DNA of 64,000 bases from Eubacterium sp. ER2 (GTDB taxonomy: Bacteria; Bacillota; Clostridia; Lachnospirales; Lachnospiraceae): NCBI RefSeq assembly GCF_000765215.1, contig NZ_JPJE01000002.1, positions 62,001 to 126,000 on the forward strand, given 5' to 3'. Shown here piece by piece: positions 24,152 to 48,853 of this stretch (positions are counted from its first letter, which is position 1; every line of letters begins with the position of its first letter). A model generated the notes under the pieces. That model saw only the letters and a list, made by a program, of their open reading frames with translations. It made no database searches and was not told the origin of the DNA. A program made the position numbers and the translations under genes.

Positions 24152-24186
24152 AATAAGAAAAGGGAAATGGCATCATGCCATTTCCC
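24152..24186 (-). terminator. Riboswitch-associated intrinsic terminator
   Basis: GGGAAATGGCAT (24162-24173) and ATGCCATTTCCC (24175-24186) form a perfect hairpin starting 18 bases after the TPP aptamer, followed on the minus strand by TTTTCTTATTC. It is the likely expression platform for thiamine control. Confidence 0.85.
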
Positions 24187-24203
24187 GCAGTCTCTCATCT
24201 TTC

Positions 24204-24285
24204 TCCCTACGTTGGCATTATCCAAATCAGGTTCCCGGGTCGAAGTTCACAACTTCCTCTCAGCCTGTCTACAAGCTCCCCATAT
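24204..24285 (-). promoter_or_regulatory. TPP (THI-box) riboswitch
   Basis: The minus strand carries the conserved thi-box blocks in order: GGGGAGC at the 5' side, CTGAGAGG, then ACCCGGGAACCTGATTTGG and AATGCCAACGTAGGGA. These are the pyrimidine-binding CUGAGA and the diphosphate-binding blocks of the TPP aptamer. It lies directly downstream of a strong promoter and upstream of thiSFGHE. TPP binding should favour the terminator at 24152-24186. Confidence 0.95.
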
Positions 24286-24301
24286 GCAATTTACATGTTC
24301 C

Positions 24302-28310: not shown

Positions 28311-28988
28311 TTACCGGGGCATACGGTAGCCGATACCCCATATAGTCTCAATGTACTCCTCCTGCGTCTCCTTCTTTATCTTCCTGCGGATATTGCTGAT
28401 GTGCACATCCAGCGTCTTGGTCTCCCCCATGTAGGGCTCCTCCCAGGCGTACTCAAAGATCTCCTCCTTGCTGTAGACCCGCCCCGGGTGGGACAGGAGG
28501 AGTTCCAGGATGCCAAACTCCTGGCGTGTAAACCGGGGCAGCTCTCTTCCCCTCACAAAGACCTTAAAGGTCTCCTTGTCCAGGGTCATCTTCCTGTGGC
28601 TCAGAGTGTCCCCGGCAGCCTCGGCTGTCCCCCGCCTGCGCAGCTGCACCTCGATCCTTGCCAGCACCTCCCGTATCTCAAAGGGCTTTGTCACATAGTC
28701 GTCCGCCCCGCTCTTTAAGAGGTCCACCTTGTCGTCCAGCCGGTCCTTCGCAGTCAGCACAATGACCGGGATATCCCTCTTTCTGCGTATCTCCTCCAGC
28801 ACCCTCTCCCCGGACATGCCCGGCAGCATCAGGTCCAGGAGGACCAGGTCAAAGGGCTCCATGTCCAGGCGCAAAAGCGCCTCAGTGCCGGAGTAGGCCT
28901 GGCTGCAGGTGTAACTGCCCTTCTCCAGGGCCTCCCTTAAAAGATTGTTGATATTTGTGTCATCGTCTATGATCAGTATGTGGTCCAC
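28311..28988 (-). CDS. OmpR-family response regulator
   Basis: 225 residues. The receiver has the acidic pocket IIDDD, phospho-acceptor Asp52 (LVLLDLMLPGMSG) and conserved Lys in VTKPFEIRE. The C-terminal winged helix (FTRQEFGILELLLSHPGR; TKTLDVHISNIRRKIKK) binds DNA. It overlaps the LytTR regulator gene by 29 bases. Probable partner is the HisKA kinase at the end of the cluster. Confidence 0.92.
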   Translation of the reverse strand: MDHILIIDDDTNINNLLREALEKGSYTCSQAYSGTEALLRLDMEPFDLVLLDLMLPGMSGERVLEEIRRKRDIPVIVLTAKDRLDDKVDLLKSGADDYVTKPFEIREVLARIEVQLRRRGTAEAAGDTLSHRKMTLDKETFKVFVRGRELPRFTRQEFGILELLLSHPGRVYSKEEIFEYAWEEPYMGETKTLDVHISNIRRKIKKETQEEYIETIWGIGYRMPR

Positions 28989-29751
28989 CTTGCCCTGTCT
29001 CTCCTTTTCTTCCTGTTCCTCTTAGGAAGGAGATACCCAGTTTTTCCATCTCCTCCCTAAGCTTTCCGTACCGGCTTCTGCTGACCGGGACGGATGTCCC
29101 TCCCTCTAACTTCGCCTCGTAAGTCTGACCGAAACGGCTGGCGCCTACTGCCCGTATATTGGCAAGGGGCACCAGGAAGGACTGATGGCAGCGAAAGAAA
29201 TGGTAGTCTAGGAAGATCCGCTCCAGCTCCTCCAGCGTGTGGGAGGTCTGCCAGGTCCCTCCGTCCTTCCTGTGGATCTGCACCTTCCGTTTCTCTTTGC
29301 ATATGTAGAGGATCTGATCTGGCTCCAGGAACAGATAGTCTGCCCCGCTCCTGACAGCAATCTTCTCTTTTCTCGGCACACCTGCCTTTTTCCGCACCTT
29401 CTCAAAGGTCCGCTCCATCCGCCGGATATCCACTGGCTTAGTGAGGAAATCCACCGGCTCATACTCGTAGCTCTCCAAGGCAAAATCCGCGTGCCCGGTG
29501 AGGAATACATAGGGCAGACCCGGATGCCTATCTTCAATGTAAGCCGCCAGGGAAAAGCCGTCCCCGCCAGGCATTTCTATATCCAGAAAGGCCAGCCGGA
29601 CCGGCTCCGTATCCAGAATCTGCCTGGCCGCCTTGGCGTCCTCGGCAAAGAGGATCTGGGACGGCTTTGCAAAATGCTCTAAGGCGGCGATGGAGTCCTG
29701 CGCCGCCACAGGCTGGTCGTCCACCAGAAGTATCTTTCCCTCAAACATCAC
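28960..29751 (-). CDS. LytTR-family response regulator
   Basis: 263 residues. Receiver with Asp57 (LAFLDIEMPGGDGF) and FLTKPVDIRR, followed by a LytTR DNA-binding domain (about 135-240; FFRCHQSFLVPLANIRAV). It overlaps the GHKL kinase gene by four bases (ATGA), marking a cognate pair of the AgrA/AgrC or VirR type. No peptide pheromone gene was recognised beside it. Confidence 0.92.
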   Translation of the reverse strand: MMFEGKILLVDDQPVAAQDSIAALEHFAKPSQILFAEDAKAARQILDTEPVRLAFLDIEMPGGDGFSLAAYIEDRHPGLPYVFLTGHADFALESYEYEPVDFLTKPVDIRRMERTFEKVRKKAGVPRKEKIAVRSGADYLFLEPDQILYICKEKRKVQIHRKDGGTWQTSHTLEELERIFLDYHFFRCHQSFLVPLANIRAVGASRFGQTYEAKLEGGTSVPVSRSRYGKLREEMEKLGISFLRGTGRKGETGQGGPHTDHRR

Positions 29752-31016
29752 GATGCCTCCTTCACAAGTCTAAGCGGGATCTTTGCCACGAAATGGATGA
29801 CCTGGCCCTCCATGCGGGAGTACACCACGCCCCCGTACCTGGCCGCCAGGGCCTGGATGGAGGCGATGCCGATGCCCTCGTGCCCGCTCTTGGAGGAGGC
29901 GCCTGCCTGGTAGGATGCCATGGGGTCCCCCTGCCGCGTCTTGTTGGCCACATTGATGATGCAGAACTCGCCCCTTTTTAGGATCGTCAGATGGATGCCA
30001 AAGGATTGGTCCGGCAGCCGCTCCGTCTCGTCCAGGGCATTCTGCAGAAGGTTGCCGATGATCTTGTTTGTCTCATAGACATTGGTGGCGATCTGGGACA
30101 GGTCGTTCTCCACCGTGATCTCCAGGCGGATGCCCTCCTGCTGGGCCCGGCTCTGGAAGGAGAGGATGAGGGCGCTGACCGCGGCGTCTTTTAGGGGCAG
30201 CAACCGGTTCATGGCCACCGAATCCTGCAAAAGCTCCTCCAGATACTTCTCGCAGGCCTCGTAGTCCTTCCTGAGGAGCAGGCCGTGGAGAGTCTGCACA
30301 TGGAAATTGTAGTCGTGCCTCTGGGAGCGGACCACGCTCATGTAGGTCTGCATGTCATCCCGGTACTGTTTCTCCGTGCGCAGGGACTCCCTCTCCCTGC
30401 TGGCTGCCACCACCAGGCAGAAAAGCCGCAGGCCTCCGAAGAAGGCGAAAAGGGCGAGGGCTGCCGTGGGCAGAGAGCATTTTCCCAGGACGGGGAGCGA
30501 CAGGCACAGGCCAAAGGCTGCAAAGAGCAGCGCACGCCTCCCCGGCCTGTCCCCATCCTGCGTCCCCTCCTTACAGAAGTACTGCTGCCATCCCTCCTCC
30601 GGGAACTCCCGGGACAAATAAGCCAGGCCTGCGCAGACACCCAGGACGGACATCAGCGCCAGCATCGTCCGGAAGAAAGGGGAGAGGTAAGAAATCCCAA
30701 GGAGCGCTCCCGACACCACCCGCAGCATGCCAAAGCAGCCGCAGGCGAGAGACACGGCTGCCAGGATATCGACCAGGGATTTCTCCTGCTCCGCCCCATG
30801 GCGCAGCAGCACCGCCATGTAGGAGACCAGAAAGAGAAGGCAGGCCCCGCTGCCCAGACGGATCCCTGCGTCCAGGCACCAGGCCAGCCCGCAGACAGCT
30901 CCGCCTATAAAAGAAAGTACCAGGCTGCGCCGTACTCTCTCCCTCTCCCAGCGCAGAGCCGCAAAGCATGACACGGCTCCGCCCAGTCCAAGAAGTGCGT
31001 AATCGGCAAACAGCAT
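29748..31016 (-). CDS. GHKL-type sensor histidine kinase (AgrC/VirS-like)
   Basis: 422 residues. The N-terminal ~200 residues form about six membrane helices. The phospho-acceptor box is RSQRHDYNFHVQTLHGLL, followed by a GHKL ATPase (NKIIGNLLQNALDE; SSKSGHEGIGIASIQALA). First gene of the six-gene cluster, behind GGAGGAGGTACC and the promoter at 31061-31089. Such kinases sense peptides or membrane stress. Confidence 0.9.
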   Translation of the reverse strand: MLFADYALLGLGGAVSCFAALRWERERVRRSLVLSFIGGAVCGLAWCLDAGIRLGSGACLLFLVSYMAVLLRHGAEQEKSLVDILAAVSLACGCFGMLRVVSGALLGISYLSPFFRTMLALMSVLGVCAGLAYLSREFPEEGWQQYFCKEGTQDGDRPGRRALLFAAFGLCLSLPVLGKCSLPTAALALFAFFGGLRLFCLVVAASRERESLRTEKQYRDDMQTYMSVVRSQRHDYNFHVQTLHGLLLRKDYEACEKYLEELLQDSVAMNRLLPLKDAAVSALILSFQSRAQQEGIRLEITVENDLSQIATNVYETNKIIGNLLQNALDETERLPDQSFGIHLTILKRGEFCIINVANKTRQGDPMASYQAGASSKSGHEGIGIASIQALAARYGGVVYSRMEGQVIHFVAKIPLRLVKEAS

Positions 31017-31060: not shown

Positions 31061-31089
31061 AGTATAGCATCCCCTCTGCTACTTTTCAA
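31061..31089 (-). promoter_or_regulatory. Sigma-A promoter of the two-TCS/ABC operon
   Basis: Minus strand TTGAAA (31089-31084), 17 bases, TATACT (31066-31061). The -35 lies inside the last codons of the thioredoxin-like gene. Confidence 0.65.
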
Positions 31090-31417
31090 TCTTTTCATCG
31101 TGGTAGAGGAGCTCTGCCAACTCCCTGTGGATCCGCTCTGTGTCCATGCCCCCCACGGACTGGTGGACCACCTGCCCGTTGTGGAAATAGCGGAAGGCCG
31201 GGATGCCCATGATCTTGTATCTCCTGGCCAGTTTCCGGTACACAGACGTGTTCACCTGGATGAAGCGGATGAACGCCATATCGTCCGCCACCTCCCGGTA
31301 GTAGGGAGCCGTGCCGACGCAGGCCCCGCAGTTGTCCCCGTAGAAATCCACCATCACGTACTCTGCGCCTTGTACCAGCTGGTCAAAATTTTCCTCTGTC
31401 GCTTCTATCACTGCCAT
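31079..31417 (-). CDS. Thioredoxin-like protein
   Basis: 112-residue thioredoxin fold without a signal peptide. The redox motif is CGAC (YGDNCGACV) instead of CGPC, and the cis-Pro loop is MGIPAFRYF. It starts four bases after the trigger-factor-like gene, so the two are coupled; a role in cytoplasmic thiol reduction or redox-assisted folding is inferred. Confidence 0.88.
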   Translation of the reverse strand: MAVIEATEENFDQLVQGAEYVMVDFYGDNCGACVGTAPYYREVADDMAFIRFIQVNTSVYRKLARRYKIMGIPAFRYFHNGQVVHQSVGGMDTERIHRELAELLYHDEKIEK

Positions 31418-31421
31418 CTTC

Positions 31422-32339
31422 TTACACCTCCAGATATGTATTGGCCTCTCTCATCAGCATATGGAATGTGTGCTCCTGGAGCTTCACACTCTTAAATATC
31501 TCAAAATCCGCCTGTTTCTTAAGCTCCTCCACATCTTCCTTTCTCTCTGCCGCCATCTGCCGGACCATCTCTTCCATGTCCTCCTCTGTGACAGAAAAGC
31601 CATCCTTCTCACAGAAATAGCAGTAGATGACATTGGGAAGGTAGTATTTCTCCTGCTCCTGTTCCATGACCTTCATAGTCTCCTCCTCTGTGAGGGATAT
31701 GCCGTCCGGCTGTTTCTTCGGGTCCACACCTGCCGCCTCCAGGGCGTCGTAGCGGGTCTTGGCCTGGTGATGGCACCAGGCCGCCTTCTCTGCCTCGTCC
31801 ACATCGAAGGTGCTCTCCCTTAGGATCGCCTCCAGCCAGAACTGGCAGATGCGGATGCTGGCCTTGTCCCGGTACGCCTGGTCGTGCTTTTCGTGGTACC
31901 AGCGCCGGTAGTCCTCCACGGTCTCCACGCCTGGCAGTCCCAAAAGGCCCACCAGCGTATCGCCCACTGTGAGGGTGCGCTTCTCCACTACCTTTTCCAC
32001 CTTGAGCACAAGGGTCCTTGCTTTCAGCTGGCAGGAGAAGGTCTCCCCTTGTCTTTTGCCCAGCACAGCCTGCTCTGCCTCCTGGGCCCCCGGCAGGCTG
32101 CGGCCTGGATAGAGGAGCACCGTGCGCCCCTCCCAGTTTCCTTTTTCATCCTTCAGACAGGTGCACTGCACGCTGTGCCCGTCCTTCACAGGCCCCTCCA
32201 TCTGCTGTTCGCTGGAGTGGTCCCTGGCCAGGGCCTCAAGCTCTTCGTCGATCTGGCTCTCCGGGAAACGCCATTTCTTTAACTCCTCCGGCACCGCAAG
32301 CTGCCGGTAGTCATAACACTGTGTCAACTTTGATCTCAT
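31422..32339 (-). CDS. Trigger-factor-like foldase lacking the ribosome-binding domain
   Basis: 305-residue protein. The first ~130 residues resemble the FKBP-like PPIase portion of trigger factor in degenerate form (VKDGHSVQCTCLKDEKGN). The rest is helical and similar to the trigger factor C-terminal chaperone arms (DKASIRICQFWLEAILREST; VTEEDMEEMVRQMA). The ribosome-binding GFRxGxxP signature is absent, and there is no signal peptide. It lies 44 bases after the ABC exporter genes and four bases before the thioredoxin gene, suggesting a folding role for a local client (inference). Confidence 0.7.
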   Translation of the reverse strand: MRSKLTQCYDYRQLAVPEELKKWRFPESQIDEELEALARDHSSEQQMEGPVKDGHSVQCTCLKDEKGNWEGRTVLLYPGRSLPGAQEAEQAVLGKRQGETFSCQLKARTLVLKVEKVVEKRTLTVGDTLVGLLGLPGVETVEDYRRWYHEKHDQAYRDKASIRICQFWLEAILRESTFDVDEAEKAAWCHHQAKTRYDALEAAGVDPKKQPDGISLTEEETMKVMEQEQEKYYLPNVIYCYFCEKDGFSVTEEDMEEMVRQMAAERKEDVEELKKQADFEIFKSVKLQEHTFHMLMREANTYLEV

Positions 32340-32383: not shown

Positions 32384-34099
32384 TTATTTCCCCGCCTCTG
32401 CCGCCTGGTGGGCAAAGGTCCGGTAGTAGTCGTTTGTCCGCAGCAGCTCCTCTGGCGTGCCGCAGGCCTCAATCTGGCCGTCGCACAGGACGATCACCTG
32501 GTCCGCGAACACAGTGGCGGAATAGTTGTGGGCGATGAGGATGGTGGTGCGGCCCTTCATCAGGTTGCTTAGGGCTTCTGTCACCGTCTTTTCGCTCTTC
32601 ACATCCAGGTTGCTGGTAGCCTCGTCAAGGAGCAGGTAATCCGGGTTGCGCATCATGGCCCTGGCGATGGCAATGCACTGCTGCTGGCCGCCGGAGAAGT
32701 TGGAGCCTCCCGGCCCCACCTGGGCGTCAAACTGTCCCGGCGTGTCCATGACAAAGTCATAGACATTGGCCATCTTCGCCACGTGGATGAGTTCTTCTTC
32801 CGTCACCTTCCGCTCCACGCCGTAGAGGATATTGTCCCGCACAGTGCCAGATAGGAGAGGCTTATCCTGAGACACGATGGCAAAGCTCTTGCGCCAGGCG
32901 GACAGCTTAAAGTCCCTGACATCCCGGTCCCCAAAGAGGATAGTCCCCTCTGTGGGATCGTACATCCGCTCCAGCAGCTTAAAGAGGGTCGTCTTGCCGG
33001 CGCCGTTGGTCCCTACGATGGCCGTGACCTTCCCCTTTGGTATAGAGCAGCTTAGATCCCGCAGCACTTTGGCGCTCTGGTAGGAGAAGTCCACGTGGTC
33101 CAGGACAATGTCCTCGTCCGCCACGTCCATCTCGCAGCCCTCCTCCTTCTCGTCAGGCACATCTAAGACCTGCCCGATCTTCTTCATGATACCCGCGTTC
33201 TGGGAGAAAGTCCCCACGCTGGTGCACAAGGTAGCAAGCCGGGTCACCGCCAGGCCGCACAGGGTGTAGAAACCGATCAGCTTGCCCACGGTCAGGTCGC
33301 CGGAGGCGATCATGCGGCTTCCAAGCACAAAGGAGATGACGATGTTGAGGCATCCCATGACCTCCATGCCGGCAAGCTGGATCATGGATGTGTAGCTTAG
33401 GAGGATGTCCGCCTTGCACTGTCTTCCAAAAAGTCCCCTTGCCTTTTTCTGCTCCTCTCCCTCCGTGCAGAAGGATTTCATAAGGCGGATGCTGCGCACG
33501 TGCTCTGCCAGGTACCCCATGACAGAGGCCAGCCTTGTCCTGGCGGCAGCTCCCGCCGTGTAGGTCAGCCTTCCGTAGAGCCAGGTGATAAACACCATGA
33601 CCGGGATCACCAGCAGACTGGCAAGGGCCATCTGGAACTGGAAACTGAACAGCTTCTGGTAGGCCACAATGCCTGCGTACACAGCAGTGAAAATGTCGAT
33701 CAGCAGCTGGAAATAGTTTCCCGCACTCTCCGCGTCCGTAGTCACACGGGTCACCAGCTCGTTCACATTGTCTGAGTCATAATAGCTGGTGGGCAGGCGC
33801 ATCATCTTGTTCCACATCCGCAGCCTCACCGCCAGGTTGATCTTCTGCAGGAGCAGTCCGGTCAGGTAGGTAAAAGCGATGGTGATGCCCCCTGTAATGA
33901 GCTGGAACTCGATATAGCGGATCAGCTCGTCTGTCTTGATGGAGTTCTGGGTCCCGTCGATGATGGAGGCCGTGATCGTGATGGCCTCCACCTCCACATG
34001 GGACTTGATCATGGAGATGACAAGCACCAGGAGGATGAGGAACCAGGGCAGCCGGATGCCCTTAAATATCTTTGTGTAGTCTTTGATCTGTCTTAGCAT
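32384..34099 (-). CDS. ABC exporter half-transporter (second subunit)
   Basis: 571 residues from ATG 34099 (MLRQIKDYTKIFKG, behind GGAGGCGG); the frame is open to 34156. Six-helix TMD (residues ~15-310), then an NBD with Walker A GTNGAGKTTLFKLL, signature FSGGQQQCIAIARAM, Walker B YLLLDEATSNLD and H-loop LIAHNYSATVF. It overlaps the stop of its partner by seven bases. The pair should form a heterodimeric type IV exporter. Substrate unknown; the repeat-domain proteins encoded upstream are candidate clients only by position. Confidence 0.9.
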   Translation of the reverse strand: MLRQIKDYTKIFKGIRLPWFLILLVLVISMIKSHVEVEAITITASIIDGTQNSIKTDELIRYIEFQLITGGITIAFTYLTGLLLQKINLAVRLRMWNKMMRLPTSYYDSDNVNELVTRVTTDAESAGNYFQLLIDIFTAVYAGIVAYQKLFSFQFQMALASLLVIPVMVFITWLYGRLTYTAGAAARTRLASVMGYLAEHVRSIRLMKSFCTEGEEQKKARGLFGRQCKADILLSYTSMIQLAGMEVMGCLNIVISFVLGSRMIASGDLTVGKLIGFYTLCGLAVTRLATLCTSVGTFSQNAGIMKKIGQVLDVPDEKEEGCEMDVADEDIVLDHVDFSYQSAKVLRDLSCSIPKGKVTAIVGTNGAGKTTLFKLLERMYDPTEGTILFGDRDVRDFKLSAWRKSFAIVSQDKPLLSGTVRDNILYGVERKVTEEELIHVAKMANVYDFVMDTPGQFDAQVGPGGSNFSGGQQQCIAIARAMMRNPDYLLLDEATSNLDVKSEKTVTEALSNLMKGRTTILIAHNYSATVFADQVIVLCDGQIEACGTPEELLRTNDYYRTFAHQAAEAGK

Positions 34100-35850
34100 T
34101 GCGCCGCCTCCTTCTCTGCCTGACAGGCTGCGATCAGCTCCATGAAAGCCCCGCACTTCCCATACAGGTCATTGTAGCTCCCGCACCCGGCCAGTACGCC
34201 TCTGTCCAGGACAATGATCTGGTCCACCCGCCTGATAAGAGACAGGTCGTGAGTGACGATGATCTTCGTCTGATCTGGAAATGTATCAAAGATCGTATCC
34301 TGTACCATCCTGGCCGCCGCAGCGTCCAGAGCTGAGGTGGGCTCATCAAACAGGAGCACGTCTGCGCCCCGCATGAACTCCCTGGTGAGCACCAGCTTTT
34401 GCCTCTGTCCGCCGGACATAGAAGTGCCGCCTGGGGCCACCGGCGTGTCAAGGCCTGCGTCCCATTTCTCCAGGATTTCCGCAAAGCCCGTCTTGCGGGC
34501 TGCCTCCCAGATCTCCTCATCCGGCACCTCCCGGTGGAGCCCGTAGGTGAGAGCCTCCCGCACGGTGCCGCTGAAGACATCCGCCCCCTGCTGCACATAG
34601 CCCATACGCCCCCGCAGCGCCTGAAGCGGGATGTCCGCCACCGGCACTCCGCCTAAGGACACGGTCCCTTCCTGGGGCTCATAGAAGTGCTCCAGCAGAC
34701 TCAGGGAGGTGGTCTTGCCGCTGCCGCACAGGCCGATAACTGCCGCGGAGCTGCCCTCCGGGATAGTGAAGGACACGTCCCTTAGGGCCTCCTTGTCCCC
34801 GTAGGAGAAGGAGACATGGTCAAAACGCACCTCGGTGCCAGCGCTTTTTCCTTCCCCCTGCCCTTCTTTTTCTTCCTCCTCAGGGGCGCGCAAAAGCTCC
34901 GCCGTGCGGGCCATGGCTCCCTGCACGCTTTTAAGCTTCATCCAATAGTCGATCAGATTGCTGAAGGAAGTGGAGAGCGTGCCGGAAAACATATAGAAAG
35001 CCACCCACTGCTGGATGTCAATGTCCCCTCTTTTCAGGAGCACTACGCCGAACACCATGACCACCATCACCTGGGCCATGCCAAGGAGGGTGGTGAGGGC
35101 TGTGATCACACAGTTCAGCTTATTGACCTTCATGTTGGCGTCAAAAAGCCCGTAAGAGGTCTTCTCCCCGTTTTTCAGCTCCCGTTCTTCGTTGGTGTAA
35201 GTCTTGATGAGCATCAGGTTGCGCACCCTCTCCGCCAGGTACGCGGTCAGGCTGCCGATCTCCTTAAACACGCCGAACTGGGTCCTGTACTGCCATCTTC
35301 CCACAAAGACTGCGTAAATAAGCTTCAGAGGAAGGAGGAGAAAGACCGACACCATCAGCCACACATTGTAGGAGGAGATGGTCTGCAGGGCTGCCGCCAC
35401 ATAGTAGATCGTGGGGAGAAAGCCCACCAGGAACTCCACCAGATACTCTGTCGCCGTCGTAGCGTCGTTTGTCATAGTGCTCATCAGATCCGAAGGATTG
35501 TGTCCGTCATAGTAATCCATGCGGATGCGGAGCATCTTCTTCCAGATCACCCTCCTTATATTCCTGGCCGCCACATGCCTGGCGGGCGAGCGCAGGGCCA
35601 CATCCCCGCAGAGCACCAGGGTGAACAGCACATAGAACCAGACCGCGTCCACCAGAGCCTGGCTGTCCGTGCTGCCGCTCATCAGGCCTGCTGTCACCGT
35701 GGGAAGGTCCAGCATGACCCTGTTGTACAGGAAATTGCACAGGAAGGCAATGATGATCCAGTGCCACGGCAGGCGCATCTTCCGGATCACATGGAAGAAA
35801 TCCTTCCAGTTTCCCCCGCCCTTGTGTCCCTCTTTTTTAACTTTACTCAC
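34093..35850 (-). CDS. ABC exporter half-transporter (first subunit)
   Basis: 585 residues from GTG 35850, chosen for AAAGGAG eight bases upstream; the frame is open to 35901. Six-helix TMD, then an NBD with Walker A GLCGSGKTTSLSLL, signature MSGGQRQKLVLTREFM, Walker B VLLFDEPTSALD and H-loop IVTHDLSLI. Both subunits keep a catalytic Glu after Walker B. A terminator-like hairpin lies just before this gene. Confidence 0.9.
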   Translation of the reverse strand: MSKVKKEGHKGGGNWKDFFHVIRKMRLPWHWIIIAFLCNFLYNRVMLDLPTVTAGLMSGSTDSQALVDAVWFYVLFTLVLCGDVALRSPARHVAARNIRRVIWKKMLRIRMDYYDGHNPSDLMSTMTNDATTATEYLVEFLVGFLPTIYYVAAALQTISSYNVWLMVSVFLLLPLKLIYAVFVGRWQYRTQFGVFKEIGSLTAYLAERVRNLMLIKTYTNEERELKNGEKTSYGLFDANMKVNKLNCVITALTTLLGMAQVMVVMVFGVVLLKRGDIDIQQWVAFYMFSGTLSTSFSNLIDYWMKLKSVQGAMARTAELLRAPEEEEKEGQGEGKSAGTEVRFDHVSFSYGDKEALRDVSFTIPEGSSAAVIGLCGSGKTTSLSLLEHFYEPQEGTVSLGGVPVADIPLQALRGRMGYVQQGADVFSGTVREALTYGLHREVPDEEIWEAARKTGFAEILEKWDAGLDTPVAPGGTSMSGGQRQKLVLTREFMRGADVLLFDEPTSALDAAAARMVQDTIFDTFPDQTKIIVTHDLSLIRRVDQIIVLDRGVLAGCGSYNDLYGKCGAFMELIAACQAEKEAAQC

Positions 35851-35878
35851 TGTCGTATCTCCTTTCAGATCCCGTATA

Positions 35879-35921
35879 TGAAAAGACGGCAGACAGAACA
35901 TTCTTTTTTCTGCCCGCCGTC
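35879..35921 (-). terminator. Terminator-like hairpin between the lipoprotein and exporter genes
   Basis: 14-base arms (35908-35921 with 35885-35898, two G-U pairs) followed on the minus strand by TTTTC. Only about 20 bases separate it from the exporter's ribosome binding site, leaving no room for a new promoter, so it may attenuate rather than end transcription. Confidence 0.65.
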
Positions 35922-35931
35922 CGGAAGGTGC

Positions 35932-36477
35932 CTAATAATCTGTCAGTCCGTAAGAATTCTTCATCATCTCCGCATAGTCCTCCACTGTGTCACCGGACAT
36001 AGCCCCCTGGGATGACAGGGTAATGATGGTCGCCTGGAGTGTGTCGCCGTCCATCACCGAGTAGAGTACATTGCCCTCCTGCGTCACCTGCTGCCCCTGG
36101 GAGGTGTAGAACTGGGCCAGCGCCTGGGCGGACGCCTCGTCCGGCGTCACGTAGTAGTCGTATTCCGCCGCGCCCTCCCCGTCCTTGGCGTAGATGATCT
36201 GGTATACATTCGTAGCGGTATAGCCAAAGTTCTTCATATCTGACAGAAGCTTGCAGCTCTCATCCCCCTTCAGCACAAAGCGCTGGTCAAAGTCCAGATC
36301 CTGGGGGTCTGTGTAAGTATAGGTGTCCGTCATGGCAAGGCTGAAATCCTTGTCCACCGTTGTCTCCTGCCCCGCGTCTCCCGCGTCAGAGCTCCCTTTG
36401 TCTTTGCCGGCGCCGCAGGCTGTGGCCGCCAGGCCAAGGGTGAGACAGAGCAGGACTGTGATCAGTTTCTTCTTCAT
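35932..36477 (-). CDS. Lipoprotein with one copy of the DPxGLxFDTRYVL domain
   Basis: 181 residues: lipoprotein-like signal peptide (LGLAATACGAG), a short Asp/Ser linker, then one ~125-residue domain (about 48-175) clearly related to those in the 1008-residue protein: DTYTYTDPQDLDFDQRFVLK, then VYQIIYAKDGEGAAEYDYYV. ATG 36477 overlaps the stop of the larger gene (ATGA), so the two are coupled. I do not recognise the domain. Extracellular, lipid-anchored location is inferred from the signal sequence. Confidence 0.8.
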   Translation of the reverse strand: MKKKLITVLLCLTLGLAATACGAGKDKGSSDAGDAGQETTVDKDFSLAMTDTYTYTDPQDLDFDQRFVLKGDESCKLLSDMKNFGYTATNVYQIIYAKDGEGAAEYDYYVTPDEASAQALAQFYTSQGQQVTQEGNVLYSVMDGDTLQATIITLSSQGAMSGDTVEDYAEMMKNSYGLTDY

Positions 36478-39400
36478 CTTGTTTCCTCTCCTTCCTTATA
36501 TTCCTCAAGCTGTTCTATCTGCTTCATCCATCCTGTGTATCCCTGCAAGGAGGCCTCAAAGGCCGGCTGTCCGACCGGCAGGGCGCTGATGCGCTCCGCC
36601 AGCTTTTCCGGCTTCATCCTCTGGCAGAAGATATGATCTCCCGCCACGATACACCGGTACTGGGCCACCGCCTGGCCATCCTTCGCGTAAAGGATCTCGT
36701 ACACCTGAGTCACTGCTATCTGGCCCTGGCCTGCCGCCTGGGCCGCCAGAGCGCTCCGGGCGTCTCCCCAATACACAAGCCGCGTGTCAAAATCAAGATC
36801 CTGGGGATCTGCAAAACAGACACCCTCCCCCACAGTAAGCTCCTGGGGACCTGCCGGGCTGCCAGCTCTCAGACGGTCCGCCGCGTCGTCAAAGTCCGCA
36901 TCGTTCCACTGTGCCGTGCTGCCGACCGTCAGTGCTGTCCCGCCGGACTCTCCGGCCATCCCGCCGTCTGCCGCCGTCTCACTTCCGGCCCCGGACGCCG
37001 CTCCTTCATCTCCTGTCCCGTCAGTCCCTGCCGGCATACTGCCTGCCGTGGAGGGATCAAATGTCCCTGCCTGTGATAAGCTGTCTTCTGCCTGCCCTGC
37101 TTCGCTCCGGCCATCTGCCTGCTGACCATCTGCCGCCTGAGCCGCATTTCCGGCTGCTGCCGGGTCAAATCCCTCCTGCTGCCCGGTCTCGCCTGCGACG
37201 GTCCCTGCGTCTGCCGGGTCAAAGGCCTCCGCCTCCCTGGCGGTCCGGTCTACGCTCTCTGCCGACAGATCCGCCTCCGGGTCCAGCACGCCCGTCACGG
37301 GGATCACCGGCGTGGGCTCCGTCTCCGCCCACTGCGCGGCTCCCGTATCCAGCAGTCCCTCCGCCTCGTAGAGCAGGCGGTTCATATCTGCCTGAGGCAG
37401 GCAGATGTAGGTAAGCGCTTTTCCGTCTGCCGTCACCTCGGTCATGCCCAGCTTCATCAAAAATCCTTCTATGTAGGCCCGGGGCGTTGCCTCTGCGATC
37501 TGTCCGTACTGTGCATACATATCAATCGTGTCCTGCAGATCCGTCCCGATCACCAGCACCGCATCTGTCCCCGGCATTGCCACCGCATACAGGCCCGCGT
37601 CCACGAACTGCCCTGCCAGAACTCCGGCTTCCTCTGCACTCGGCATGACGTAAATCTTGATTTCGTAAAGCGCACGGCTGTCCTGTTCGTAGATGACCTC
37701 ATAGAATGCATTGGCTCCCTGCTGAGCCGCAAATCCGTTTGTCTCATCTCCATACAGTACATATCGTCTGTCATACTCTGGACCCGGCAGCACCTGCGCC
37801 TCATCGTACGTGTAGCTGTCGCTCACTTTCACGCTGAACGCCTCATCCGGCGTGGTGCCTGTCAGTCCGCCAGATGGCTCCTCCGGCTCCTCTGCCGGGT
37901 TGGGATTGCGGAAATACTGATAGCCCTCATTCTTGTAAAGAGCCGCCATATATGCCTCCGGGGTCGCCTCGTCCGCATAGCCCATCTGCACGTACATCTC
38001 CATCATGCTCTCGATCATGGCAAGATCCATATCGATGCAGGCCACTCTGCCTGTGACTTCGACTTCTCCCATGCCGCCGTACATGCTCTCGATCTGGGCC
38101 GCGTCATCTGCACTGGCCGCATCGTAGCACCGGTACACGGCCGCCAGTTTTCCGTCTTTCAAGTAATAGATCTCATAGACCCCTTTAACCTGACTTCCGA
38201 TCTGGCCTGCTGCCGAGACCGCCCCGCTGTCCTCTCCGCCGTAGAGCACATACCTTGTATCATACTCCAGTCCTTTTGGATCTTCAAAGGTATATTTGTC
38301 TGTGATCTCCACAGGGAAGGAATTGTCCGCCGTCGCCAGAGCTTCCTCCAGCTTGTCGGTAAGCTGCTCATCCGTCACGGCCACGCTCGTCTCCCCGGAG
38401 GGATCGGGTGTATCCGGGTCGTCCGGTTTATCTGGCTGGTCAGGTTCTTCCGGGCCTGACGGGGTGTCCCCTCCCGGCGTATTTCCTCCCGGCGTATTAC
38501 CACCCGGTGTAGTTCCCCCTGGCGTGGAGCCGCCCGGCGTACTTCCGCCGCCTCCACCGCCACTGCCGCCGCTGCCGTTTCCGGAGGATGCAGGCGGCTG
38601 GTACTCGCTCATGCCGCCAAAGTAGAACTGCATGCCAAGGTAAGCTGCCGGAGTCTCGGACTTGATAACGCCCTGATCGTAATATGTCCGGATCGAAGTC
38701 TGCACGTAGTCTCCTGATGAGTACACATACACGACATCCCCCCAGCGTCCGGCGCTCTGTCCGCCTCCATTATATACTCCCGCATAGGCCGAAGCCATCC
38801 TCTGTGCCTCCGCCTCGCTACTCATGACGTAACAGACATATTCGCCTGCCGCCTGGCCCCCCTTCGCATAGAGGACCACATACGCTTCTTTGCAGCTATA
38901 CCCCTGCGCATTCGCTCTTTTGGCCGGGATGCAGTCGGAGCCTCCATGGAGCACGTACCTGGTGTCAAAGCTGAGCCCGGACGGATCCGAGAACGTACAA
39001 AGATCACTCATCTTGATGGGGTAGCTGTTGCTGGCGCTGGTGCCTCCCACCTGTGCGCCCCCGTTGTCCACATAGCCTGTCTGCTGTACAGCTCCGTCTG
39101 TTCCGGAGGCCCCGCCGGCTCCCGACGCGCCGTCGGCTCCGTCTTTATCCTGATTTCCTGCGCTCCCAGCGTCCACGTCATCTCCCTTGATCTTGTCCGC
39201 CAGGTCGGCCAGGGGCGAGTCCTCCAGGAGCTCTTCTATCCCGCCGTTCTTAGAGATCAGGTAAGCGCCTGTCCCCACGCCGCAGGCCAGGGCGGCCACA
39301 GCGACACCTGCAATGACCTTTGTCCTGGTCTTCATTTTTTTCTTCTGTCCTTCCGGCTGTTTCTCTTGTCCGTCCTGTACCTGGACCTTTTCCTCATTTT

Positions 39401-39500
39401 CCACTTCTGCCACTCTCCTTAGACGACTGTATCTTGCGTATTGCTCATATTCCTTCTGAAATAATTTTAACAATCTTAACACGTCTCTGTTTTTCCGCAC
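36474..39500 (-). CDS. Large membrane-anchored protein with four copies of an unrecognised domain
   Basis: 1008 residues. A cytoplasmic Lys/Glu-rich N-terminus precedes one helix (VIAGVAVAALACGVGTGAYLI, about 62-82), so the rest is outside. Related domains lie at about 163-298, 398-525, 557-685 and 888-1000, each opening with D(x)YTFxDPxGLxFDTRYVLYGG and continuing V(Y)EIxYAKDGxxxAxYxCYV; the fourth is shorter. Linkers are TPGG repeats (320-345), Asp/Pro-rich, and an Ala/Gly/Asp-rich stretch holding three FDPxxAG units (759-820). The GTG start at 39500 has no clear ribosome binding site; GTG 39404, ten bases after AAGGAG, is a good alternative and keeps the anchor. Coupled to the lipoprotein gene. 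Confidence 0.8.
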   Translation of the reverse strand: MRKNRDVLRLLKLFQKEYEQYARYSRLRRVAEVENEEKVQVQDGQEKQPEGQKKKMKTRTKVIAGVAVAALACGVGTGAYLISKNGGIEELLEDSPLADLADKIKGDDVDAGSAGNQDKDGADGASGAGGASGTDGAVQQTGYVDNGGAQVGGTSASNSYPIKMSDLCTFSDPSGLSFDTRYVLHGGSDCIPAKRANAQGYSCKEAYVVLYAKGGQAAGEYVCYVMSSEAEAQRMASAYAGVYNGGGQSAGRWGDVVYVYSSGDYVQTSIRTYYDQGVIKSETPAAYLGMQFYFGGMSEYQPPASSGNGSGGSGGGGGGSTPGGSTPGGTTPGGNTPGGNTPGGDTPSGPEEPDQPDKPDDPDTPDPSGETSVAVTDEQLTDKLEEALATADNSFPVEITDKYTFEDPKGLEYDTRYVLYGGEDSGAVSAAGQIGSQVKGVYEIYYLKDGKLAAVYRCYDAASADDAAQIESMYGGMGEVEVTGRVACIDMDLAMIESMMEMYVQMGYADEATPEAYMAALYKNEGYQYFRNPNPAEEPEEPSGGLTGTTPDEAFSVKVSDSYTYDEAQVLPGPEYDRRYVLYGDETNGFAAQQGANAFYEVIYEQDSRALYEIKIYVMPSAEEAGVLAGQFVDAGLYAVAMPGTDAVLVIGTDLQDTIDMYAQYGQIAEATPRAYIEGFLMKLGMTEVTADGKALTYICLPQADMNRLLYEAEGLLDTGAAQWAETEPTPVIPVTGVLDPEADLSAESVDRTAREAEAFDPADAGTVAGETGQQEGFDPAAAGNAAQAADGQQADGRSEAGQAEDSLSQAGTFDPSTAGSMPAGTDGTGDEGAASGAGSETAADGGMAGESGGTALTVGSTAQWNDADFDDAADRLRAGSPAGPQELTVGEGVCFADPQDLDFDTRLVYWGDARSALAAQAAGQGQIAVTQVYEILYAKDGQAVAQYRCIVAGDHIFCQRMKPEKLAERISALPVGQPAFEASLQGYTGWMKQIEQLEEYKEGEETR
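38466..38543 (-). repeat. TPGG-type 15-base coding repeats
   Basis: Five to six near-identical 15-base units encode (S/T/N)TPGG pentapeptides in the linker after the first domain of the 1008-residue protein. Confidence 0.75.
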
Positions 39501-39546: not shown

Positions 39547-42465
39547 TTACAGGTCCCTTCTGCAGGATAAGGCCCCGTCTGCCGCCTCCAGGATCTCCTG
39601 GCCGCCTACGATGCACGAGCCTCCTTTTTCACAGATCTCATCCAGGATACGGCTGACCTTCTCTAAATCCTCTTTGGTCGTACAAAGGATCTGCCTGCGG
39701 TCCCTTTGGCGCATCTGCCCTGTCACCTGCTCCATGTAATCTTCCGCTGCCTGCATGCCTTTCTGCCTTGCTGTAAGAAGAGGCTCTGTGGCCGCGATGG
39801 TGCTGATGATATAGGAGGTCAGCTCCTGCCCGCTGGCGCACAGTTCCCGAAGGGAGGCCCCGGCCTTGTCAAAGACGGCCAGGGAGGCGGCGGCAGAAGG
39901 ATCTCGGAAACTGGTAAAGGCCACGTCCCCGCCAGGCGTGATGGCAAGCCGGGTGCCGTAGGCTCCCCCTTTGACCCGGACGGTGTTCCACAGATACCCG
40001 TAGGACAGGATGCGGGCTGCCACTGCCATAGCTCCGCTGTACCTGGCCCCGCACTGGGCCAGATGTCCTCCCTTGCCGGCAAAGCCCACCGGGGCCGGGA
40101 CAAGGATACCTTCTTTCCTCGCCGGCTTTTCCCAAGACCAGGAGACCGCCTCTTTCGGGGCCCGTCCCTCTGGCAGGAAGGAGGCCAGACCGGGAAGCTC
40201 CTCTCTTGGCATCTGTCCTGTGACAGAAAGGACGGCGCGCCTTCTCACGAAGAGCCGTCTGCACAGTTCTTTCAGCCTGCCTGCCAGCTCCGCGCCTCTC
40301 TCCTCAAACTGGCTGTCCATCTCCCGCAGCCAGTCCAGCATACTGACGCCCCGCAGCGCCTCCCTGGCCCCGCCTTTCGCCGAGCACCCGGCGGCGATGC
40401 GCAGGGAGGCATAGCTGTCACCGTGCATGAGGACGTGCTGTTCCAGCGACAGCTTGAGCTGGCGCAGACGGCCTCTTAGGTAGGCAAGATCACCAAAATC
40501 CGTGTCCAGCAGCACTTCCCTTGTCAGTTCCTTTGCCTCCTCCAGCTTTTCCTCCAGGGCTGACACATGGACGGCAAAGCAGGGCTTACACGTTGCCGTC
40601 TCCCCTCTTGGCGCGAACACCTCCACACTGGTCTGAAAACGCCCCAGCTCTCCTTCCAGAGACGCCGCAAGCTCCAGGACGGAAAAACGCGCCGTCCTGG
40701 TCTGCCCCAGCAGGGTCTGCAGGAAGGAAAGAAGGTGCAGCTCCTCCTCTGTCAGGTCCCCGGCCAGGAAGTACCAGACAAGATGGGCGATGCCTTCTGT
40801 CTCCAGAGGATGACAAAGGACCTTGACCCCCGCCTCCTCTGTCACCTGCTGGGGGATGTCCGGCGTCTCTTCCTCTATATCCGCAAGGGACAGCACCGGA
40901 AGCGCGGCCAGGTCCTGGGGGCGGTCCGGCCTATTCTGGAAGGCCCTAAGGGCTGCCAGCTTCTGGATGACCTGCTCCCTCTCCTGGCTGCTCCAGCTCT
41001 CTTTTATCCTGCGGAAACGCTCTGCCTCCTCCTTTCTCTTCCTCTCTCCCAGCTCCCTGGAGGGGAAAAGCACCACCTGGGCACAGTGTGGGTTCTCCAG
41101 GAAATTCTCCCGGATAAACTGCTCAAAATATCCGTCTTCTATTCCTTCCCGCAGGCGCAAGAAGGCGTCCCCCAGGCAGAGATTCTGGGCCGGATCCCCT
41201 CCGTAGAGGCAGCTCTCCAGCATTTTCATGCAGTTGAAAAGCCCCTGGGGAAAGCCTCCTGTCTCCTTCTCCCGATAGCGGAACTCCATCCGGCTGATGA
41301 CCGCCTCCAGCCTTCTGTGGTCCAGCCCCTGGGCGGCCAGCTGCTCCAGCACTGTGCGCACGGTATCCCAGATCTCCTGCTCCTTCTCTTTGGCGGCATG
41401 TCTTACCACCAGGACGGCAAAGGGCTGCTGGACGCCGTCCACCTTGGAAAATTCCACATTCTCAGCCAGCCCTCTCTCCAGCAGCGCCTTCTTAAGAGGC
41501 GCCTCGTCAGAGCCGCAGAGCATCTCGCATAAGGTCTGGCAGGCTAAGTCCTTTGCCGGCTCATCAAACCGCCCGTAGACCCATCCCTTTGCCAGGATCG
41601 TCTTCCTTTCCACGTCCTCCTCCCCGGCCTCATAGGGAATACGTACCTCCCCTGGGTGTACCGGGCTCTGGAAGGGAATCGGATGATCCTTTTGCTGGGG
41701 TCCAAAGCCGGACAGCACCTGCCCGATCTTCTCCAGCACCGGCCCGATCTCCATCTCCCCGTCCAAAAGGAACCACGCGCCTGACGGGTGATAGTATTCA
41801 TGGTACTGTGCCTTGTATTCCTCGTAGGTGAGCGCCGGGATACAGGCAGGGTCCCCGCCGGACTGGAACTGATAGCAGTTGTCCGGGAAAAGGGCCCGGT
41901 TCAGGGCGCTGTCGATCAGCATGTCCGGCGACGCGTACATCCCCTTCATCTCATTGTACACCACGCCGTTGCAGGAGAGCTCCCCCTCCTGGCCGTCCAG
42001 CTCATAATGCCATCCCTCCTGGCGGAAGATTTCTTCCTTTTCCAGGCAGAGCGGATGCAGCACAGCGTCCAGATACACGTCCATCAGGTTGAGGAAATCC
42101 TTCTGGTTGCGGCTGCTTACCGGATACATGGTCTTATCCGGGAAGGTAAAGGCATTCATAAAGGTCTGCAGGGAACTTTTGATCATCTCTACAAACGGCT
42201 TGCTCACCGGATATTTCCGGGAACCGCACAAAAGCGAGTGCTCCAGTATGTGGAAGACGCCTGTATCGTCCGATGGCAGTGTCTTGAATGCCGCCGCAAA
42301 TGTCTTGTTCTCCTCCCTGCGTTCCAGCCACAGGAGCCGGGCGCCATTTTTTGCAAAGTGCATCTGCCAGAGGACTGCCCCCATCTGCGGCAGCTTTCTT
42401 CTTCTATCTATGACAAAGCCGCAGGACGCAGCCGCCTGCTCTGTCTTCTGTCTTTTCAGATCCAT
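39547..42465 (-). CDS. M16C-family metallopeptidase (presequence-protease-like)
   Basis: 972 residues from ATG 42465 (MDLKRQKTEQ), chosen for AAGGAG eight bases upstream; the frame is open to 42600. The inverted zinc motif HxxEH is HILEH (His72, Glu75, His76), followed by SLLCGSRKYPVSKPFVEM typical of Cym1/PreP-type M16C enzymes. The length fits the two-half clamshell fold with a linker. No signal peptide, so it probably degrades peptides in the cytoplasm. Only 46 bases separate it from the 1008-residue protein gene, with no terminator between. Confidence 0.92.
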   Translation of the reverse strand: MDLKRQKTEQAAASCGFVIDRRRKLPQMGAVLWQMHFAKNGARLLWLERREENKTFAAAFKTLPSDDTGVFHILEHSLLCGSRKYPVSKPFVEMIKSSLQTFMNAFTFPDKTMYPVSSRNQKDFLNLMDVYLDAVLHPLCLEKEEIFRQEGWHYELDGQEGELSCNGVVYNEMKGMYASPDMLIDSALNRALFPDNCYQFQSGGDPACIPALTYEEYKAQYHEYYHPSGAWFLLDGEMEIGPVLEKIGQVLSGFGPQQKDHPIPFQSPVHPGEVRIPYEAGEEDVERKTILAKGWVYGRFDEPAKDLACQTLCEMLCGSDEAPLKKALLERGLAENVEFSKVDGVQQPFAVLVVRHAAKEKEQEIWDTVRTVLEQLAAQGLDHRRLEAVISRMEFRYREKETGGFPQGLFNCMKMLESCLYGGDPAQNLCLGDAFLRLREGIEDGYFEQFIRENFLENPHCAQVVLFPSRELGERKRKEEAERFRRIKESWSSQEREQVIQKLAALRAFQNRPDRPQDLAALPVLSLADIEEETPDIPQQVTEEAGVKVLCHPLETEGIAHLVWYFLAGDLTEEELHLLSFLQTLLGQTRTARFSVLELAASLEGELGRFQTSVEVFAPRGETATCKPCFAVHVSALEEKLEEAKELTREVLLDTDFGDLAYLRGRLRQLKLSLEQHVLMHGDSYASLRIAAGCSAKGGAREALRGVSMLDWLREMDSQFEERGAELAGRLKELCRRLFVRRRAVLSVTGQMPREELPGLASFLPEGRAPKEAVSWSWEKPARKEGILVPAPVGFAGKGGHLAQCGARYSGAMAVAARILSYGYLWNTVRVKGGAYGTRLAITPGGDVAFTSFRDPSAAASLAVFDKAGASLRELCASGQELTSYIISTIAATEPLLTARQKGMQAAEDYMEQVTGQMRQRDRRQILCTTKEDLEKVSRILDEICEKGGSCIVGGQEILEAADGALSCRRDL

Positions 42466-42609
42466 CCTTTTTCTCCTTACTGTGCCATTGTCTTTTTTCA
42501 ATCTTCTCTCTATTGTCCAGATGCCGGGAACATCTGTCTGCAAAGATAACCGATTTCCAGAGGGGTGATATGTCTCCTTGCAGCGCTTTAGTCCCGGCAT
42601 CTATCTGCA

Positions 42610-45164: not shown

Positions 45165-46910
45165 ATGACACGATTATTAAGCTACCTGCGGCCCCATCCC
45201 ATCATCACGGTCATGGCCCCTCTCTTTAAGATGCTGGAGGCCACCTTCGAGCTCTTTGTCCCCCTGGTAGTGGCGCAGATGATCGACGTGGGAATTGCCG
45301 GGAACAATACTCCCTATCTCTGGAGAATGGGCGCACTCCTCATTCTCCTTGGCATCGTGGGCTTCTCCTTTTCACTGACCGCCCAGTACTTTGCGGCCAA
45401 ATCTGCCGTCAGTGCCGGCATGGCTATGCGCAGCGACCTGTTTGCCCACATCGGCACCTTCTCCTACCAGGAGATCGACACGATCGGCACTTCCACCCTC
45501 ATCAACCGGATGACCAATGATGTGAACCAGGTACAGAACGGAATCAATATGTTTCTCCGCCTGTTCCTGCGCTCTCCCTTTGTTGTCCTGGGAGCCATGG
45601 TCATGGCCTTCTCCGTGGATGTCAGGGCAGCACTTCCCTTTGCCATCACCATTCCTGTGCTCCTGGTGGTTGTCTTCGCCATCCTCCTGATCAGCATGCC
45701 CCTCTACAAGAAAGTACAAAGACAGCTTGACAGAGTACTCCTCCTGACACGGGAAAATCTCCTTGGCATCCGGGTTGTACGAGCCTTTGCGAGGCAGCGG
45801 GAGGAGAAGGAGCGGTTCAGCCGGGAGGCGGACGGGCTGTACAGAAAGCAGATCTTCGTGGGAAAAATCTCAGCCCTCTTAAATCCCCTCACTTACGTCA
45901 TCATCAATCTTGGGATCATCGCGGTCCTCTGGTTCGGCGGGCGCCAGGTGGATGCAGGAGACCTGACCCAGGGACAGGTCATTGCCCTCATCAACTACAT
46001 GTCCCAGATCCTGACAGAGCTGGTGAAGCTGGCCAATCTGATCATTCTTCTCTCCCGTGCCCTGGCAAGCCTTGCCCGGGTAGACGCCATCTTCGATGTG
46101 GAGCCCTCCATGCCCGATGAAGGGGCATCTCCCTCCTTCTCCTCTGCCCAGGAGGGACAGCCTGCCGTCTCCTTTGAAAATGTAGGCTTTACTTACGCCG
46201 GCGCAAGAGAGGAGACTCTCCAGGGCATCAGCTTTTCCGTCATGCCCGGAGAGACCATCGGCATCATCGGCGGGACAGGCTCAGGGAAATCTACGCTGGC
46301 AAACCTCATCCCCCGGTTCTACGACTGCACCTCCGGCACCATCCGCCTTTTCGGGCAGGATGTGCGCTCCCTTAAGCCCTCCGCCATCCGGAAAATAGTG
46401 GGCATCGTCCCGCAGAAAGCCACAATCTTCTCCGGCACGCTCAGAAAAAACATGCAGTGGGGCAAGCGGGACGCCACGGACGAGGAAATCTACCGGGCGC
46501 TGGATATCGCCCAGGCAAGAGAGTTCGTAGACAGCAAGGAGAAGGGACTGGATCTAATGATCCAGCAGGGCGGCAGCAACCTGTCCGGCGGGCAGAAGCA
46601 GCGGCTCACCATCGCCCGGGCTCTCGCAGGAGAGCCGGACATCCTCATCCTGGATGACAGTGCCTCAGCTCTTGACTTTGCCACGGATGCGAAACTCCGA
46701 AGGGCTATCAAGGGAAGCACCGAAAATATGACCGTGTTCATCATCTCCCAGCGGGTATCCGCTATCCGCAGCGCGGATCATATCCTTGTCCTGGATGACG
46801 GCCGTCCCGCCGGGTACGGCACTCACGAGGAGCTGTTCTCCTCTAACCACGTATACCAGGAGATCTGCGCATCTCAGTCTGCCGGAAAGGAGGCATCTGC
46901 AAATGCATAA
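45165..46910 (+). CDS. ABC exporter half-transporter, degenerate-site subunit
   Basis: 581 residues, six-helix TMD then NBD. Walker A GGTGSGKSTLANLI, signature LSGGQKQRLTIARAL, H-loop replaced by Gln (IISQRVSAI). Walker B reads ILILDDSASALD, with Asp where the catalytic Glu should be. Loss of both the Glu and the H-loop His marks the non-hydrolysing half of a heterodimeric exporter such as TM287/288 or LmrCD. Overlaps its partner by eight bases. Confidence 0.92.
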   Translation: MTRLLSYLRPHPIITVMAPLFKMLEATFELFVPLVVAQMIDVGIAGNNTPYLWRMGALLILLGIVGFSFSLTAQYFAAKSAVSAGMAMRSDLFAHIGTFSYQEIDTIGTSTLINRMTNDVNQVQNGINMFLRLFLRSPFVVLGAMVMAFSVDVRAALPFAITIPVLLVVVFAILLISMPLYKKVQRQLDRVLLLTRENLLGIRVVRAFARQREEKERFSREADGLYRKQIFVGKISALLNPLTYVIINLGIIAVLWFGGRQVDAGDLTQGQVIALINYMSQILTELVKLANLIILLSRALASLARVDAIFDVEPSMPDEGASPSFSSAQEGQPAVSFENVGFTYAGAREETLQGISFSVMPGETIGIIGGTGSGKSTLANLIPRFYDCTSGTIRLFGQDVRSLKPSAIRKIVGIVPQKATIFSGTLRKNMQWGKRDATDEEIYRALDIAQAREFVDSKEKGLDLMIQQGGSNLSGGQKQRLTIARALAGEPDILILDDSASALDFATDAKLRRAIKGSTENMTVFIISQRVSAIRSADHILVLDDGRPAGYGTHEELFSSNHVYQEICASQSAGKEASANA

Positions 46911-48779: not shown

Positions 48780-48853
48780 GTGGGCATAGCTCAGCTGGAT
48801 AGAGCGTCTGGCTACGGACCAGAAGGTCGGGGGTTCGAATCCTCTTGCCCACG
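48780..48853 (+). tRNA. tRNA-Arg (anticodon ACG)
   Basis: 74-base cloverleaf. Acceptor GTGGGCA pairs with TGCCCAC; D arm GCTC/GAGC; anticodon arm TCTGG-CTACGGA-CCAGA puts ACG at positions 34-36; T arm has TTCGAAT. The wobble A34 is normally edited to inosine. CCA is not encoded. Flanked by a perfect promoter and a terminator. Confidence 0.96.

Follow-up and report, generated by a model that had tools for sequence, protein, structure and literature searches.

What is the role of a domain that occurs five times in the products of two coupled genes, once on a small lipoprotein and four times in a large protein, directly beside an ATP-binding cassette (ABC) exporter? Both genes lie on the minus strand of a 64,000-nucleotide stretch of Eubacterium sp. 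ER2 DNA (contig NZ_JPJE01000002.1, positions 62,001 to 126,000; hereafter the window, whose numbering is used below unless a locus is named). The first gene, at 36474-39500, encodes the large protein of 1008 amino acids (aa), its start codon being unsure, and the second, at 35932-36477, encodes the 181-aa lipoprotein with a lipobox recognized by eye; the stop codon of the former and the start codon of the latter overlap as ATGA. The analysis suggests, with a probability of about 0.5, that the two proteins bind ligands at the cell surface on behalf of a module for sensing and export, in the manner of the lantibiotic immunity lipoproteins.

Judged by sequence comparison, the five segments are homologous. 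Smith-Waterman scores of all ten segment pairs were 6.4 to 31.2 standard deviations above the background of 300 shuffles each, the S3-S4 pair being the weakest. Profile hidden Markov models (HMMs) built in the leave-one-out mode found all five segments with E values from 6.8e-18 (S4) to 1.5e-33 (S1), and the best E in the shuffle control (999 shuffles per segment) was 0.017 to 0.18. A chance repeat as the origin of the segments was ruled out by the shuffles. The copy in the lipoprotein (LP; residues 41-181, 35935..36357) was detected with E 2.9e-66 by hmmsearch with a model that includes it and with E 1.2e-31 when it was left out. In the large protein, S1 (residues 156-304, 38589..39035) is nearest to the anchor and the best conserved of the four, followed by S2 (residues 391-534, 37899..38330), S3 (residues 551-693, 37422..37850), which is strongly divergent in the sister species, and the shortened S4 (residues 882-1005, 36486..36857). 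Across the 17 rows of the domain alignment D42, R44, V46, Y70, Y74, and Y146 (first-row numbering) are invariant and P36 nearly so.

The late motif reads TPAAY at residue 283, TPEAY at 513, and TPRAY at 672 in S1-S3, and TVEDY at 164 in the lipoprotein; S4 carries SLQGY at 984 in its place. Five TPGG repeats occupy residues 321-344 (38469..38540), and the linker stretch at residues 760-820 (37041..37223) holds three FDPxxAG repeats, at 760, 778, and 814. The original prediction, made from the letters alone, had proposed a domain of ~120 residues with four copies plus one in the lipoprotein, and both the leave-one-out profiles and the shuffles agree with it. The shared motifs it described, the late TPxAY or TVEDY in S1-S3 and the lipoprotein included, and the two kinds of linker were found as described, and the refined borders, which come from a profile built out of these same segments, are close to the positions it gave.

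Residues 62-80 of the large protein (39261..39317, minus strand) form its top hydrophobic stretch (Kyte-Doolittle 19-mer mean 1.83), with just one further 19-mer barely reaching 1.4, at residue 633 inside S3. The stretch therefore probably serves as a signal anchor, which would place the domains outside. The first residue of the relative from an uncultured Dorea metagenome-assembled genome (MAG) aligns with Met56, which is why the start of the 1008-aa frame is given with a caveat. Cys73 within the hydrophobic stretch (39282-39284) loosely matches an older lipobox pattern, which leaves some small chance of a lipid anchor. In PHROGs, residues 304-368 of the large protein matched a tail protein (E 2.5e-5), a match that covers the Gly/Pro repeat linker and was taken as an effect of composition; weaker matches were phrog_2088 on the same protein (residues 930-969, E 0.019) and phrog_5610 on the lipoprotein (residues 1-78, E 0.004). 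Kin of the large protein were sought in plasmid and phage collections with zero matches, and none of 31 pattern matches to the domain in viral contigs was confirmed.

Does the domain belong to a described family? None of its 17 members scored above a curated cut-off in Pfam or NCBIfam (best E 0.023 in either library), in line with the earlier failure to assign it to a named family. The whole large protein matched no family in these two libraries, and the best NCBIfam match of the whole lipoprotein was confined to residues 1-40 (E 0.0068, 16.4 bits vs. a cut-off of 118). The nearest family match, ChlamPMP_M on the whole lipoprotein of locus L045 (E 0.0013, 19.2 bits vs. a cut-off of 25), concerned one of the 17 members and remained below the cut-off. 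A profile search of PDB sequences with the domain gave zero matches. DUF1307/YehR (PF06998) was rejected as its identity: the profile matched in none of the 139 genomes, the window's included, and in the control it matched E. coli only.

The fold of the LP copy was predicted confidently by AlphaFold2 (mean pLDDT 90.1, 15-row alignment), with strands (E) and helices (H) running E E E H E E H E E H H. For the large protein, the model (three rows, mean pLDDT 48.7) served only to read the element order in its better-scored parts. In that model, S1 and S3 keep the LP order plus a short end strand, the last helix being split in S1, and S2 keeps it with strands 1-2 of just two residues each. In S4, strands 1 and 2, the middle helix, and one more strand are missing. 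Hence, the expectation of matching folds in all copies held for the core order of LP and S1-S3, within a low-confidence model of the large protein, but not for the shortened S4. Foldseek searches of the PDB with the LP model returned 415 matches at E≤10, none of them at E≤0.001; the top ten rows included YehR (2joe), TP0453 (3k8j), 2mvb, and the PknH extracellular domain (4esq), none with a TM score above 0.42, together with unrelated enzymes and a regulator. In the BFVD structure search none of 436 matches was significant (best E 0.044). Altogether, these results support the view that the extracytoplasmic domain forms a family new to the libraries searched.

Five genomes were found to carry the domain: that of the window, Claveliimonas monacensis, the Dorea MAG, G331 of the same family as the window, and G464 of another family of the same order, Lachnospirales (taxonomy of Claveliimonas). 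In overlapping genome sets, each with the window genome among the carriers, it was detected in 3/397, 2/11 (genus), 2/392, 1/371, and 1/199 genomes. The sets around the other carriers gave 1/19 near G464 and 1/1 near G331, the match being the centre genome, and the class- and phylum-wide samples (371 and 199 genomes) held no further carriers. The scan of genome contigs with a single lipoprotein query reaches close relatives only, so that five genomes may understate how common the domain is. Lipoprotein matches in 8 of 61 genomes were confined, outside the window genome and G009, to the signal-peptide region (residues 1-70) and were not counted.

In all five genomes the lipoprotein gene directly precedes the genes for the two ABC exporter subunits, a trigger-factor-like protein, and a thioredoxin, in this order. 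A histidine kinase and a LytTR response regulator adjoin in four of the five, and in the fifth (G331) the contig stops shortly past the thioredoxin gene. The large protein is present in three genomes (the window, C. monacensis, and the MAG), with four to five copies of the domain, and the M16 peptidase gene neighbours the module in the same three; G331 and G464 have the lipoprotein alone. The "pair" of the original prediction proved too narrow, since the large protein is missing in two of the five genomes and the exporter, trigger-factor-like, and thioredoxin genes adjoin in all; the prediction had been silent on these and the two-component genes, as well as on the variation in copy number. 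Upstream of the lipoprotein gene of G331 lie transposase-like frames (L031:28-2007, TnpA- and TnpB-like by eye) and an esterase-like frame recognized by eye with Glu/Pro-rich repeats (L031:2031-4232).

In the window, the module is transcribed from the minus strand, like the two domain genes. ABC1 (34093..35901, 602 aa) and ABC2 (32384..34156, 590 aa), with overlapping frames, are adjacent genes that both encode ABC_membrane and ABC_tran, the arrangement of a heterodimeric ABC exporter, and we infer that their products pair as a heterodimer. The best NCBIfam scores of both proteins were exporters (MsbA, TAP2), all below the cut-off. The trigger-factor-like protein (31422..32339, 305 aa) matched TIGR00115 below its cut-off (48.6 bits vs. 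180.2) over model positions 109-386 of 410, a match that leaves out the ribosome-binding part; Pfam Trigger_C gave E 0.007, also below the cut-off, PDB sequences gave no match, and its kin in L045 and L061 are without a trigger-factor Pfam match. Further on are the thioredoxin (31079..31417, 112 aa; CGAC motif by eye), the histidine kinase (29748..31016, 422 aa; SPOB_a and HATPase_c_5), and the LytTR response regulator (28960..29751, 263 aa). The M16C (PreP-like) peptidase (39547..42600, 1017 aa) lies on the other side of the large-protein gene. An anti-phage defence system was not supported by PADLOC, where of the nine proteins only the two ABC proteins matched, over their ATPase regions.

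No RNA family reached the Rfam gathering score between 28000 and 43000. Elsewhere in the window there are a TPP riboswitch (24186-24292, minus strand; Rfam, 61.6 bits), a second tandem ABC exporter-like pair on the plus strand (45165-48672; 581 and 628 aa, by eye), and, after this pair, a tRNA (48780-48853).

The copies of the domain diverge unevenly. Between the window and C. monacensis the amino-acid identity was 99.4% for LP, 100% for S1, 91.0% for S2, 89.0% for S4, and 55.9% for S3. Synonymous divergence (dS) was 1.3 for S3 and 0.016-0.436 for the remaining parts and the genes included in the comparison. Nucleotide identity fell from about 91% to 48-71% across S3, roughly coinciding with its borders, and recovered to 85% beyond it; before S4 there was a smaller dip, to 77%. 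Compared with the MAG, identity was 79% for S1, 54% for S2, 54.9% for S3, and 34% for S4. The three S3 copies are about equidistant, C. monacensis and the MAG sharing 48.5%. In a tree of 17 copies, from which C. monacensis S1 and LP were left out as near-copies so that S1 has two rows, the S1, S2, and S4 positions grouped across genera with strong support, LP and S3 weakly. The extra copies were S2-like in C. monacensis and, in the MAG, one grouping with S3 on a long branch. Replacement by recombination and the differential loss of older copies both fit the S3 difference.

Similar modules exist without the domain. A search with the trigger-factor-like protein as a marker (E≤1e-12) gave 12 matches in 11 of 394 genomes, a threshold at which weaker modules may be missed; in the genus sample the marker was present in the same two of 11 genomes as the domain. 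All 12 neighbourhoods were inspected, and G334, with no exporter in 11 kb, was left out of the module count. Eight more distant modules lack the domain, and each of them contains the ABC pair and thioredoxin, the second ABC gene being split in one (L060:2369-4377, two frames of 460 and 209 aa, from either a frameshift or an error of assembly). Response-regulator matches were seen in seven of these, histidine-kinase matches in three, and the M16 peptidase in six. Four carry a second lipoprotein family (DLSKYPxxxxEWT..., ending in F; L058:7067-7711, L063:7428-8054, L064:616-1248, and L066:10070-10591), none of whose members had a Pfam match above the cut-off. The other four have, between the exporter and the regulator, an anchored protein of 163-164 aa (L059:10253-10744, L060:4390-4884, L061:7469-7960, and L062:7965-8459), and its L061 copy had no family match above the cut-off. 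Kinship between the domain and the second lipoprotein family was rejected (hhalign probability 0.2%). In the exporter tree, which leaves out L060 on account of its split gene, whose pieces were not joined, the first and second subunits separated, the five domain-bearing loci formed one clade per subunit (100/100), and the loci with the second lipoprotein and those with the 163-164-aa protein formed clades of their own. Because the exporter clades match the types of extracytoplasmic protein, the outside protein goes with the exporter type.

How can these findings be combined? In the reading to which we give a probability of about 0.5, the lipoprotein and the large protein would bind something outside, in the service of the adjoining exporter and kinase. 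The module would consist of the histidine kinase and LytTR regulator, the heterodimeric ABC exporter, thioredoxin, and a chaperone that resembles trigger factor minus its ribosome-binding part. The lipoprotein would be the original part, held at the membrane beside the exporter, and the large protein may have been made by copying of the lipoprotein-type domain; a later arrival of the large protein is suggested by G331 and G464, which have only the lipoprotein. The anchor-side S1 would be held fixed, probably because of contact with a fixed partner, and the outer S2-S4, variable in sequence and number, would be the likely contacts with changing outside molecules, antimicrobial or signalling peptides being the candidates.

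A more far-reaching version, which we put forward only tentatively, sees a surface receptor array in which the lipoprotein domain was copied, the anchor-side domain docks, and the outer domains are swapped and multiplied one by one under the pressure of outside peptides, and makes the sister modules a broad, undescribed Lachnospirales sensing and export family. If so, the sister modules would share a core of exporter, chaperone, and thioredoxin, each with its own type of extracytoplasmic protein. Either way, a new extracytoplasmic domain family is tied to a module of exporter, trigger-factor-like protein, thioredoxin, and LytTR two-component system, and the match of exporter clades to extracytoplasmic protein types, together with the divergence of a single domain between sister species, offers handles on what gut bacteria of this kind sense or expel. 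A literature search for such a gene set retrieved nothing on it, and papers in other wording or behind subscriptions may exist.

Several observations weigh against this interpretation. Compared with the MAG, S1 is no better kept than ABC2 (80%) or thioredoxin (79%), and LP (67%) falls below all three. The S3 divergence could be the outcome of unequal loss of old copies, and G331 and G464 may have lost the large protein instead of the others having gained it. The 163-164-aa loci in the exporter tree (n = 3; G383, G066, and G296) are nearly identical and count as about one case. The domain and the sister lipoprotein show no profile relation, so that equal roles can be argued from their place alone. 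A single transcript gains no support from the site scan, which was near chance for promoters and placed the best promoter-like site just upstream of the kinase gene. Finally, the trigger-factor-like protein and the thioredoxin, which appear cytosolic (no signal seen by eye), suit protein export as well as resistance.

Because of this apparent location, the main rival is an export-and-fold machine, in which the two proteins keep a cargo unfolded and reduced, the ABC pair carries it out, and on the outer side it is received or folded by the domain proteins. Both genes directly follow the ABC genes in every domain-bearing genome, the chaperone-like protein is without its ribosome-binding part, and the best family scores of the ABC proteins, below cut-off as they are, belong to exporters. 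However, the intergenic gaps from the M16 gene to the kinase gene (4 to 62 bases) leave no room for a cargo gene, which could lie elsewhere, and no peptidase domain was found on the ABC proteins at E 0.01; we regard this alternative as unlikely. Still less probable is that the large protein is a display chain, an adhesin or stalk binding host or neighbour surfaces, with the exporter genes incidental. The probable signal anchor, the low-complexity Pro/Gly spacers, and the repeated domains in variable number would suit such a chain, but in two of the five genomes the lipoprotein does without it, and in all five it stands beside the exporter.

Export of a small thiol by the ABC pair, with the domain proteins as redox sensors, would explain the thioredoxin in all five loci and the thioredoxin-reductase-like gene that adjoins it in L045 and lies close by in L058. 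E. coli CydDC, likewise a heterodimeric ABC exporter near thioredoxin genes, has thioredoxin reductase in its neighbourhood. The ABC proteins here stay below the cut-offs for CydD (205.5 and 220 bits vs. 435, TIGR02857) and CydC (178.7 and 207.2 bits vs. 329.05, TIGR02868), cysteines are absent from the invariant residues of the 17 domain rows, and CydDC is not known to have such a lipoprotein. This explanation seems very improbable.

We return to the preferred reading, a ligand-binding lipoprotein and its multiplied relative at the surface, and to its likeness to known systems. On the level of fold, YehR (2joe) and the Streptococcus pneumoniae protein 2mvb, both lipoproteins of DUF1307, resemble the LP model weakly in layout (Foldseek E 0.36 and 0.77, TM 0.36-0.42), and the PknH extracellular domain matched more weakly still (E 0.97, TM 0.23-0.27); none of these matches is significant. 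NisI and SpaI were absent among the best 50 of the 415 PDB fold matches. On the level of gene order, the LanI lipoproteins (NisI, SpaI) are small lipoproteins encoded beside the ABC transporter LanFEG, with a two-component system in the same cluster, and the module shares this arrangement. It differs in its exporter, built here of paired membrane-plus-ATPase subunits, unlike LanFEG. No lantibiotic genes were noticed in the gene run, and the trigger-factor-like protein and thioredoxin are additions. NisI has been described as two like-folded domains that share the work, membrane contact falling to one and peptide binding to the other (PMC4828448). The fixed S1 and LP and the changing S2-S4 between sister species would fit such a division of work. 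In its working principle, which combines a lipoprotein with an ABC transporter and a two-component system, the module is of a kind already known.

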